A stretch of 64,000 nt of DNA, taken from NCBI GenBank assembly GCA_034766995.1, contig CM068313.1:34794996-34858995 (forward strand), given 5' to 3'. The notes below the pieces were generated by a model. It was not told the DNA's origin and searched no databases. It was given only the letters and a program-made list of their open reading frames with translations. Source of the DNA: Acanthacorydalis orientalis (lineage: Eukaryota > Arthropoda > Insecta > Megaloptera > Corydalidae). This document shows, piece after piece, positions 51,108 to 57,200 of this stretch (positions are counted from its first letter, which is position 1; each line of letters starts with the position of its first letter). Position numbers and translations under genes: made by a program.

Positions 51108-52115
51108 CATTAAGGTATTTAACGAGTTTGTGTATTAAAAATATTTTTGAATACAGATGTCAAAAAAGCATTAAAAACAAAATTAATATCTATATTAGAG
51201 TATAGCTATATTACAGAATTATAAATTTACTATAAGTTTATAATTGCAATTTAACACGAAAATATAAAATATGTTTTTCAAATCTTTTGATATGAAATAT
51301 AATAACGTATATAAATTAACTATTTTATTTAAGATACAATTTTAATATAGCTTATTAACCTTTTATTGTTTTTCAAAATTAATGTGTCGATTTTTAATTA
51401 AAAATACTAATATAACAAGATCTTCAACAAGGTATTTAATTTTTTTTTAAAAAACAATTAAATTTTCTTTAATATTTCTATAAAGTTTCTTTCAGAAAAG
51501 CTCAGTACAAACCAAAATAAATATTTTTTTTGTTCAAAAATATTTATTTTTAGATCGTTTTTTATAAAAAAATGTGGGTATATAATTTTTGTGTAATGTT
51601 TTCTTGACTATTAAGTATATAATTTTTGGCAATTATTTTTTTTATTTATTCAGTCAACATTTTTTTCTAATAGTACTTATAAAATACATTTGTCATCTTT
51701 AAACAGTTCATTAGTCCCATATTTACTGTATAATAAATATTTAAGTAATGACTATATAACAAAGTATTTATTTAAATTTATTTTACATGAAAATTGAGTA
51801 AAAATACTTTATACAGCATATTTAGTATCCACATCGACTAAAACATGCTAGGTCGTTAAACTACTTCGTAGTATTCAACTATTTTAAATTTTAACAATTA
51901 GAAAATTTCTAAAATTCTCAATGATGCTGTCCAATTAGTCATTAAATAACAAAATTTAATTGTAAATGTTGAATGTGTACATAAGAAAATAAAATTTATT
52001 TCATTTTTTAATAATTTATTTCAATATTTACAAATTAACAAAACATTCTCTACATGTATATTTATATAATGAACTATACATATATATACCTACATACATA
52101 TATATATACATATTT

Positions 52116-52300
52116 CAAGTTCTTTTATGAGTTCTATAATTGTAGACTTTTTGCTTAAAAACACTTCTAATAATTTGATTTTTTTTTGAACCAACTGATC
52201 TATTCGCCATACGAATAGATCAATTAGATCAAAAAAAATCGAATTATTAGAAGTGTTTTTAAGCAAAAATCTGCAAGTATAGATCTGATAAAAGAACTTG
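52116..52300. ncRNA. Candidate hairpin RNA locus derived from feo/PRC1 coding sequence
   Basis: The left arm 52116-52206 and right arm 52212-52300 are inverted copies of each other, about 89 percent identical over 91 aligned positions (8 mismatches, 2 single-base gaps by hand alignment). Only five bases (ccata) separate them. The reverse complement of the left arm aligns without gaps to feo exon 3 at 55315-55405, about 77 of 91 bases identical; the right arm is about 84 percent identical to the same interval. Both arms share differences from feo (gaagtgtttttaagc where feo has gaactatatttaagt). Transcription from either strand would give a long, nearly fully paired stem with one strand antisense to feo mRNA. 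This matches the known architecture of hairpin-RNA endo-siRNA and young miRNA loci. Expression is not shown, so the ncRNA label is a hypothesis; the inverted duplication is directly visible. Confidence 0.6.
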
Positions 52301-52341
52301 GAATATATATATATATATATATAAAACTGACAAATTATAAT

Positions 52342-52347
52342 TTTATT
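52342..52347 (-). terminator. Candidate polyadenylation signal of MTIF3
   Basis: AATAAA on the minus strand about 250 bases after the MTIF3 stop, just before a short (TA)n tract and then the feo-like hairpin. Confidence 0.45.
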
Positions 52348-52597: not shown

Positions 52598-52726
52598 TCA
52601 TGCAATTTTACTATCATCTTTCTTTGGAGGTATAATCTGAAATCGTAAATCATTGCCTTTAATACGTTTCTGAAGAAATCTTGCATTATTTTTTAAAGAA
52701 GTCTCTAATTTTGAATATATTCTTTC
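52598..52726 (-). CDS. MTIF3: MTIF3 exon 2
   Basis: Starts ERIYSKLETSLKNNARFLQK after an ttatag acceptor and ends at TGA. This is the last helix and strand of the IF3 C domain. Confidence 0.85.
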   Translation of the reverse strand, partial: ERIYSKLETSLKNNARFLQKRIKGNDLRFQIIPPKKDDSKIA

Positions 52727-53314
52727 CTATAAAATAAAACAATTGATTACAATAATATTTAATATCTCAATTTTAATTATTTAACTTACTGCTGAATCCA
52801 TATTATTGGCATCTCCATTTATTACAATACGCACTTCATAATTTTTACTTATCCATCGATTGATATTTTTAATTTTTGATTCGATATCGTGATCGGATAT
52901 TCGCATACTTAATGTTAACATCTTTTCGCCTTTATATCCTACATCGTTCTTTGATGCTTTTCTTTCTGCACGACTTTTTAAGTCTTCTGCATGGTACTCT
53001 GTTCCTGTCATTAACTTGAAAATAGGTCTTTGAGTTTTTGTATCAAAGTCAAGTATTTTCACTAATTTTAAATCCCTTCTGCGTGAAAGCTTCTGGGCCT
53101 CTTCTATTGTAGTTACAGAAATAGAATCACCAGGTAATATTAATGTAATTTTTTGAGAATTACTTTTATTTTTTGATTCTACTCTTTCTACTGGAACTGA
53201 ACTTTCAGAATGCATAAAAATTTGAACATTTTTATTAAATACAAGTGACGCATTACGTGGTATTTTAAAAATTCCGTAATTGTTTACTAAATTTATTAAA
53301 GTACGAAACGACAT
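52598..53314 (-). CDS. MTIF3: Mitochondrial translation initiation factor IF-3, 217 aa
   Basis: Binds the small mitochondrial ribosomal subunit, keeps subunits apart and checks start-codon pairing. Two exons: 53314-52790 (175 codons, donor gtaagt on the minus strand) and 52726-52598 (42 codons plus TGA), phase 0, intron 63 bp. Residues 1-50 are a poorly conserved, Arg/Lys-bearing presequence. The IF3 N domain follows (VTTIEEAQKLSRRRDLKLVK, then PIFKLMTG), a Lys/Arg-rich linker, and the IF3 C domain (MRISDHDIESKIKNINRWI, then EVRIVING). The C terminus ends FQIIPPKKDD plus a short tail. The length suits metazoan mtIF3. The ATG at 53314 is the first in frame. It lies head to head with feo. Confidence 0.88.
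52790..53314 (-). CDS. MTIF3: MTIF3 exon 1
   Basis: Presequence, N domain and most of the C domain, ending NNMDSA before gtaagt. Confidence 0.88.
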
Positions 53315-53517
53315 TTTTTATAAAATTAAAATTCTTTCATTATAACCTATTTCCACTGTCCAATGACTTCTTTTGCTCTACCACGTGATTGATATGAAGT
53401 TTAAATTATACATAGATAAAAGACTATCTGAAATTACATATATATTTATACATATTATTACCTAAGGCAATAAATAAATAAATAACAAATTATGATTACA
53501 AAATGTTCAAGCATTAC

Positions 53518-54299: not shown

Positions 54300-57200
54300 T
54301 ATGCACACACACACACATATGTGTGTGTGTAGAAATTATTTATATTTATAACAATTTTAGTTTAATTTTCTACTGTCAAATCAATCAAAAATGACAATGT
54401 GATGTTAGACATAAACATATTAACATATATACTTGTAATTATTCATTTCTTTAAATATATTCTACATAGTTGTGCAATATAGGGTTCAGCTGTATGGTTG
54501 TGTATTTTTGATTTTATTTATTTCATTGAAAATATGAGCAATATATTAATTACTTCCTCATTGAATATTTTACTACGATTTTATTTAACTTATTTCTATA
54601 TAGAAAAAATGTACTATATTAAAACAATAATGAAATATTTACAATACATGATTTGTATTCAACACATAAAGTTACTTTTACATTTATATCAAGTTTTTAT
54701 TTACTTTAAAATATTTTTAAGGGAAGAAATGGTAACAGAGATAAATGATAAGATTAATACAACATTGAAACATTTAATAAGAATATGGGAAGCAATTGGG
54801 TTAAATGAAGAATCAATTCAATTGAAATGTGGTATGTTTCGAAGTAATATTCTGAATTTGTTGAAAGAAATGAGTGATGAAGTGGAAGAAAATAAAACAT
54901 GCCTCGTGAATAACATAACAAAATTGCTAAATATGAAAAAAGTTCTCATTCAAGATTTAAGATTGAATGAACCTGTAGATGATTATGCTGATATTCCATT
55001 ATTTGATCTTGAAAATTTGGTTAAAGAAGATGTAGAAAAGTAAGTAGTAGAGCAAGTAATTTTATAGTTTATATGTTAAATATATATAAATGTATATGTA
55101 TATATATATATATATATATATAGTATTAAATATACAGTTAGTAGAAATTGTCATTTTCAATTGTAGATTTCAGAAAATCGCTGAAAATAGGAAAAAAAAA
55201 ATATTAAAACTCATAAAACAAGAAAAAGAGTTATGTGAGTCTCTTGGTCTTCATCCTCAAGGTTTAGAAATTTCACCTTTGCCTTCTGAGCAAGAAGTGC
55301 ATGAATATAAAATGCGAATAGATCATTTGGATCAAAAAAAATTTGAATTATTAGAACTATATTTAAGTAAAAAATCTGAAATTATACAATTCATAAAAGA
55401 ACTTGGTATTGAGCCTAGTCTTGACTTTGAAAGACAGGTAGTAAGTGAAAATGACAACTTGTTTCATATAACTCCAGTTAATATGACAAAATTAGATCAA
55501 TTTTATCAATCATTAAAAGAAAAATTGGAACAAACTAAAAGTACAGTGGAAGAACTACGTGAAAAAGTGGCAGATCTTTGGGAACAATTAGAAGAAAGTG
55601 CTACAGTTCAAAGTAATTTTTTGCAAAAATATCCCGGTCACAGTCTATCTGTAATGCAAGCATTGCAAGAAGAGATTTTAAGGTGTGAAACTACAAAGCG
55701 TGCTAACATAGAGGTATTTTTTTATATTCATGTATTTCTGTATGTGTGTGTGTATATATATATATTTATATATATATATATATGTATTTTAGATTTTTGT
55801 GGAGAAAATTCGACAAGACATTGTTGAGTGGTGGAATAAGTGTAGATTTAGTCAAGAGCAGCGTGCAGAATTTACACCGTTCAAAAATAACTGTTATACA
55901 GAAGATCTTCTTACATTACATGAAATACAATTAACAAAGTTAAAATCTTATTATGATAACAACAAAAGTATTTTTGATCTAATTAAGAAACGTGAAATGC
56001 TTTGGGAAAAAATGTTAGAATTAGAAGAACGTGCAAATTTAACAGACAGATATAAAAATCGAGGCGGACAACTCTTAAAAGAAGAAAAAGAGAGAAAAGC
56101 TATTTCTAATAAATTACCGCAAGTTGAGCAAGCTTTACTTGATTTGATAGACATTTATGAGGACAAACATGATAAACAATTTTTAATTGATGGAGAAAAT
56201 ATAAAAGATATTATTGCACGGGCATGGGATAATCATAAACAAGACAAACATGTTAAACTTTCAGCAAAAAAACAAGCACGCGAACAGTTGCCTTCGTGTA
56301 GTAAAATTAAAACTATCGGAAGTGTTAGTAAGTCTCGAGTTTTAACCCCTCTTGCAATTTCTACATCGAAGCGTAAACAATGTACTCCACTTATAGTGTC
56401 TGCTAAACGTAGTCGAATTTTAAATGAAAATACGCCAAAATTTTCACATAATATAAAAATCAAAGTTAATGGCTCTACAATTAAAAAACGGGTATTGTAT
56501 TTGTATTTTTCAATGATTTCTTTTTACTTTCATTCTATTTTTTAAGTAGTATTCTTTAGTCATTACTGTGTAAAAAATTAAAAAAACTATATATTAATCC
56601 TTCATATTGTAGTATTTCCAATTTTTTTCTTAAAATATTAAGATATGTTTGATATTTGTTATGACAAATAACAATTTAATAAGTCAGTAGTCAGAAGAAA
56701 ATTTATTAATGTCAACTAATATGGATCAAAACAATATGTGTATTTAAAAAAATGTGTACATATATATATATATACATATGTATATACATGAGTTAATAAC
56801 TTTTGAATATTATTTACTATTTGCTTCCTTTATTGAATATTAAACCAGTTTTAATACTAATAATTTTTATTATGTCTACTAAAATTTAACAGTAGTAATA
56901 ATGAAAAAATATGCTAATAAAATAACTTATTGCATAGACATCTGGAGCTAGAAGAAGATTAAATACAAGTAAAAAAAGGAATAGATCGATTACATCAAAT
57001 GAAAAAACAGTTTCATCTAATATACCAAACTATAATATGTTTGAAGTAAGTGAAGCATTGTTGGTAATGCAAACATTAAGTCAATATATTATTTTATATA
57101 TATATATATATATATAATGTTTATATTTAAATACATACTGTTATTTTTAAAAGGAATATGTGCAACAAAATAGCCATGCAAGAAGTACCCTATATAATCC

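Follow-up and report, generated by a model that had tools for sequence, protein, structure and literature searches.

In the inverted-duplication model proposed for plant MIRNA genes, the arms of a hairpin share homology with a coding gene, its potential target, while hairpin RNA (hpRNA) loci of the Drosophila type are characterized by a primary transcript that builds up when Dcr-2 is lacking and by Dcr-2-dependent small interfering RNAs (siRNAs) of 21-22 nucleotides. For instance, Dsim-hp58 is presented in PMC10317233 as a hairpin born from exon 2 of CG17385, one gene away, with a transcript, Dcr-2-dependent siRNAs and full target matches, and the siRNAs of both hp58 and hp88 are described there as fully complementary. 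Template switching, as portrayed in two other accounts, makes perfect RNA stems in one event (PMC8794818) and inverted junctions at yeast replication forks (PMC10766183). The earliest stage of hpRNA genes is the least known, namely the origin of the inverted repeat and the frequency with which it decays before acting. Here we analyse a 64,000-nucleotide stretch of DNA (the window) from the megalopteran Acanthacorydalis orientalis (GCA_034766995.1, contig CM068313.1, positions 34,794,996 to 34,858,995), in which an inverted repeat lies about 3 kb from the feo/PRC1-like gene that both of its arms match. The inverted repeat is real and gene-derived, and we consider it likely that it was inserted by a single template switch and is now a decaying relic without function.

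The feo hairpin resembles Dsim-hp58, as that locus is described in PMC10317233, in being an inverted repeat made from a coding exon fragment of a nearby gene, and it resembles hp88 of the same account in its position close to the 3' end of a different transcription unit. Two traits of Drosophila-type hpRNAs are found in it, an extended stem and arms derived from the would-be target gene. However, it differs from hp58 and hp88, as they are depicted there, in having no full 21-mer match to feo. Homology of the arms to a coding gene, a possible target, is also what plant MIRNA inverted duplication would give, and a preliminary description of this DNA had rightly recognized that form, with both arms descended from an exon of the adjacent feo gene. 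Unlike the plant case, the feo hairpin occurs in an insect, has arms of about 90 bases and shows no excised shorter fold-back.

Both arms are colinear with the same stretch of feo from end to end (Table 1), at 82.8% identity for the left arm (16 substitutions in 93 columns, no gaps) and 84.6% over ungapped columns for the right arm (14 substitutions and 2 gaps). In the 548-Mb genome of 27 contigs, the feo matches of the two arms have E values of 5.3e-21 and 4.7e-18. The proposal that the repeat was built from feo coding sequence is therefore confirmed for both arms, and so is the five-base spacer, CCATA, although the arms are 93 and 91 bases long instead of 90. The left arm is ungapped as claimed; with slightly altered trimming the identity is 85% over 92 bases, and our recount gives 16 base differences and 10 differing residues of 31 instead of 14 and 9. 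The gene itself was recognized by its conceptual protein of 519 residues, built from exons of the window, which matches Pfam MAP65_ASE1 at 345 bits; its best named match by E-value is from the bee Calliopsis (36%), with the click beetle Ignelater third among the neighbouring matches at 37%, and the best match overall reaches 42%.

Compared with each other, the arms are 90.1% identical over ungapped columns, separated by 9 substitutions (5 transitions and 4 transversions) and two one-base deletions in the right arm. A fold-back read or an assembly artefact should yield near-identical arms; with differences at 11 of 93 columns, we judge such an origin unlikely. The arms are flanked on either side by TA-rich tracts that are self-complementary and lengthen the stem, and hence the palindrome seems longer than its feo-derived part. 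Folding, which the preliminary description had recommended, bears out a strong stem: positions 52090-52330 reach -114.4 kcal/mol against -31.5 kcal/mol for shuffled versions (standard deviation 4.17; z = -19.9), and none of 200 shuffles folded as well. The 189-base core forms 85 pairs at -98.6 kcal/mol, which gives the long inverted repeat an extended stem.

Table 1. Coordinates of the feo hairpin, its source and neighbouring features, numbered from the first base of the window
Feature	Position	Strand	Description
Left arm	52114-52206	-	93 bases; minus-strand reading is feo exon sequence, in frame, ungapped
Spacer CCATA (hairpin loop)	52207-52211		5 bases
Right arm	52212-52302	+	91 bases; feo orientation, two one-base deletions relative to left arm and feo
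Full palindrome including TA-rich flanks	52094-52322		Self-comparison (86.6%) and fold
feo/PRC1-like homologous stretch	55315-55407	+	Third exon as counted in the preliminary description
AATAAA, possible poly(A) signal	52342-52347	-	Pattern scan; between IF3-like stop codon and hairpin
Likely mitochondrial initiation factor 3 (IF3) gene, two exons	52598-53315	-	Open reading frame and sequence; convergent upon hairpin

From the head-to-head copies, the near-zero spacer and the self-complementary tract we infer template switching followed by fold-back copying. A polymerase stalled within the TA tract would have jumped to the feo exon through a short stretch of identity (feo ...GGTAT...) and copied about 93 bases of it, after which the nascent strand would have folded back on itself so that its own new strand was copied. 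Copying would have stopped in the tract's own complement, likewise TA, so that a return to the original template would be possible; one such event is predicted to yield both arms together with almost no spacer. Colinearity with one source and a short spacer, both traits of a template-switch palindrome, are found here; equal age of the arms would fit a star phylogeny, but with a one-sided p of 0.075. Like the template-switch hairpins described in PMC8794818, the feo hairpin is a reverse-complement repeat whose stem could form in one mutation event; unlike those, as they are presented there, both of its arms seem to have been copied from a source 3 kb away rather than one arm from the other in place. 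If this reading is true, the locus displays the earliest stage of an hpRNA gene, with source, insertion site and both arms in one 3-kb stretch and with changes enough to count. Although probably without function, the repeat would form a hairpin once transcribed, and read-through from the IF3-like gene that converges on it is predicted to be able to yield a transcript that includes the hairpin and supplies a Dicer.

A genome-wide DNA search (548 Mb; very common words are skipped) with a 196-base hairpin query returned four matches, which are the hairpin and feo, each on both strands, and no further close DNA copy of the arms. Such a search had been proposed together with the idea that a second PRC1-like copy was the source, an idea that loses ground with this result. 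A second PRC1-like gene is present on another contig, C2 (L010, G000:C2:56044000-56053999), with 42-45% protein identity to the feo of the window; beside it lies an open stretch (L007) that resembles a fragment of a mariner-type transposase. As a source of the arms the C2 paralogue was rejected on that level of protein identity and the lack of any DNA match.

Copy number also bears on whether the hairpin might be a terminal-inverted-repeat transposon (miniature inverted-repeat transposable element, MITE) that had captured a feo fragment. An inverted repeat inside TA tracts has this general form, and the same genome holds such a repeat family, represented by the MITE-like palindrome at L029:9135-9339, which is likewise set in a TA tract and has at least 50 matches in the genome. 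By contrast, the search with the feo hairpin returned nothing beyond its own locus and feo instead of dispersed copies, and its arms consist of feo sequence throughout and carry no terminal sequence of another kind. A MITE origin was therefore rejected on copy number, and we regard it as hardly credible.

When the two arms and feo are aligned over 93 columns, 9 changes are seen in feo only, 4 in the left arm only and 4 in the right arm only; one further column differs among all three sequences, and two bases are absent from the right arm. The feo-only share (9 of 17 resolvable sites against an expected third; one-sided p = 0.075, two-sided 0.12) does not reject a star phylogeny, in which one event would have produced both arms, with each arm and feo changing independently since the insertion. 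A wider trim including the loop and TA flank gives 11 feo-only, 4 left-arm and 6 right-arm changes, with three three-letter sites. Four of the feo-only changes are synonymous and five nonsynonymous; the single-arm changes fall at replacement sites in 7 of 8 cases (1 of 8 synonymous), and the two deletions of the right arm break the reading frame.

The arms had been said to resemble each other more than feo and to share derived changes, pointing to a late inversion or to homogenization. The first statement stands (90.1% versus 82.8% and 84.6%), while the second is weakened by the p value above and by the residues themselves. Of the seven residues common to the arms but unlike feo, five are found more often than the feo residue among 118-119 relatives, by raw counts. 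Moreover, the reconstructed arm ancestor, placed in the feo protein, scores higher than feo by 2.3 bits with a profile of 120 relatives and by 1.9 bits with a profile of eight chosen relatives, including five beetles and the C2 paralogue. Taken singly from feo to arm, the replacements of tyrosine by phenylalanine, leucine by valine and glutamine by glutamate raise the score in both profiles, that of phenylalanine by isoleucine lowers it in both, and the other three are mixed or negative. These scores and frequencies suggest that some of the changes regarded as derived and common to both arms probably took place in feo, although the evidence is modest.

The same counts bear on a different history, in which the arms derive from a diverged second feo copy, lost or unassembled, or in which a two-step origin was followed by gene conversion between the arms. 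This would account for the closer identity of the arms to each other and for the 9 changes that separate both from feo, and a 28-base block identical between the arms contains four differences from feo. The length of this block is, however, not unusual (permutation P = 0.17), so that gene conversion is not needed; the feo-only excess is not significant, some of the feo-only residues seem to have changed in feo itself, no other close copy appeared in the DNA search, and the C2 gene is too distant. We hold this history to be unlikely.

The pairing of the arms seems to have been left to wear. In 1000 simulations, a perfect palindrome of the arm ancestor received random transitions, transversions and deletions, as many of each as in the real one, and the decayed products equalled or exceeded the stability of the real hairpin in 957 cases on the plus strand and 995 on the minus strand (mean energies -108.7 and -110.4 kcal/mol versus -98.6 and -96.0 kcal/mol for the real hairpin). 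If anything, the real hairpin is more worn than chance predicts. Because the decay model is crude, with the ancestor taken by majority, the left arm followed at open sites and deletions placed anywhere, this result is read only as giving no sign of selective upkeep of pairing.

Silencing of feo, the role suggested in the preliminary description, finds no backing in this result or in the arm 21-mers. None of the 144 fully matches feo, and hence an siRNA-sized stretch of full complementarity to the target, as described for hp58 and hp88, is lacking for feo. The best found have two mismatches (23 of 144), and 10 of 144 combine two mismatches with paired guide positions 2-11, making weak targeting of feo conceivable. 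For the 28-base block, no other place in the genome was found at up to 3 mismatches, and the window has no match to an Rfam family at the gathering score, including canonical microRNA families. The stem is longer than usual for a microRNA precursor. A very strong fold together with homology to a neighbour is no evidence of silencing, and for this the feo hairpin, as a likely dead example, may serve as a yardstick.

Several points weigh against a single insertion that is now decaying without function. The arms can still pair at 85 positions, and with two Dicer-like and five Piwi-domain loci in the genome a hairpin transcript, if made, could be processed. The insertion event itself is deduced from the locus in this one genome. 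The feo-only changes outnumber those of each arm, which leaves room for a shared history of the arms before or after the inversion, and at 2 of the 7 arm-shared residues the arm residue is rarer than that of feo among the 118-119 relatives. Finally, each present arm by itself scores below or close to feo with the two profiles, at +0.8 and -3.0 bits for the left arm and -3.5 and -4.2 bits for the right.

The RNA interference machinery seems to be present, as judged from the loci found. One Dicer-like gene, on C12, is Dcr-1-like (L042, G000:C12:14399631-14399906 region) and has an uninterrupted reading frame of 1642 codons or more, while a Dicer-like piece on C3 has its best match to Dcr-1 (1.9e-32) and a longer but weaker match to Dicer-2 (5e-23), and may be named Dicer-2 by elimination. 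One fragment of the Piwi-domain loci, on C2, was compared and has argonautes as its best matches. Two nearly identical Piwi-domain genes (L031 and L032) stand in opposite orientation about 18 kb apart on C5, at about 15.872 and 15.853 Mb.

With such enzymes at hand, the feo hairpin might be a working hpRNA locus whose transcript is cut by Dicer-2 into endogenous siRNAs that repress feo. The strong fold agrees with this, as do the ten 21-mers with perfect guide positions 2-11 and, on the account of PMC10317233, the origin of the arms in a neighbouring gene as in Dsim-hp58 and a location close to where a different transcription unit ends, at its 3' side, as in hp88. However, a minus-strand AATAAA stands ahead of the hairpin, and as a poly(A) signal it would possibly leave the hairpin outside the IF3-like mRNA unless read through; further copies of this motif lie past the hairpin on the minus strand, for example at 52015 and 51995. 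The arms also lack the full target matches described for hp58 and hp88 siRNAs in PMC10317233, their pairing is kept no better than under random decay, and no alternative target was found for the 28-base block within 3 mismatches. Taken together, we think a working locus quite unlikely.

It is also conceivable, though very improbable in our judgement, that the hairpin once silenced feo, which escaped by changing the targeted stretch, and that the palindrome is a fossil of this arms race. The unconstrained arms would then have kept older letters while the feo exon changed. The 9 changes on the feo branch versus 4 and 4 favour such a course, and relative to the C2 paralogue the 31-residue target is less family-like than about 98% of 311 overlapping windows. 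Compared with the family alone, the same target is unremarkable, as 24% of 489 windows are lower.

The frequency of palindromes was surveyed in the window plus 19 stretches, each of 10 kb and placed at even intervals along contig C1 as a regular rather than random sample, together 254,000 bases (3,012 of them N in L018; L010 left out), with rows of periodicity above 0.7 dropped uncounted. Fifteen palindromes were found, one being the feo hairpin, and seven of the other 14 were examined: five are mostly TA tracts, one belongs to a repeat family (L029) and one is single-copy (L019). The latter, at L019:5921-6028, has 54-base arms at 75% identity and is more decayed than the feo hairpin, indicating that single-copy decayed palindromes are not unique to the feo hairpin site. 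The notable part of the locus is the coding source next door, not the single-copy palindrome as such.

Among the neighbouring genes, the IF3-like gene ends with a stop codon at 52600-52598, and the hairpin lies 296 bases beyond. Its protein scores 22.9 bits for Pfam IF3_C and 20.8 bits for IF3_N, and the name is tentative because both values are below the curated cut-offs (34.8 and 26.9). A GUF1 protein was also pieced together from the window; its best match is Ignelater luminosus at 73%, and its 20 best matches are, judged by genus, all beetles.
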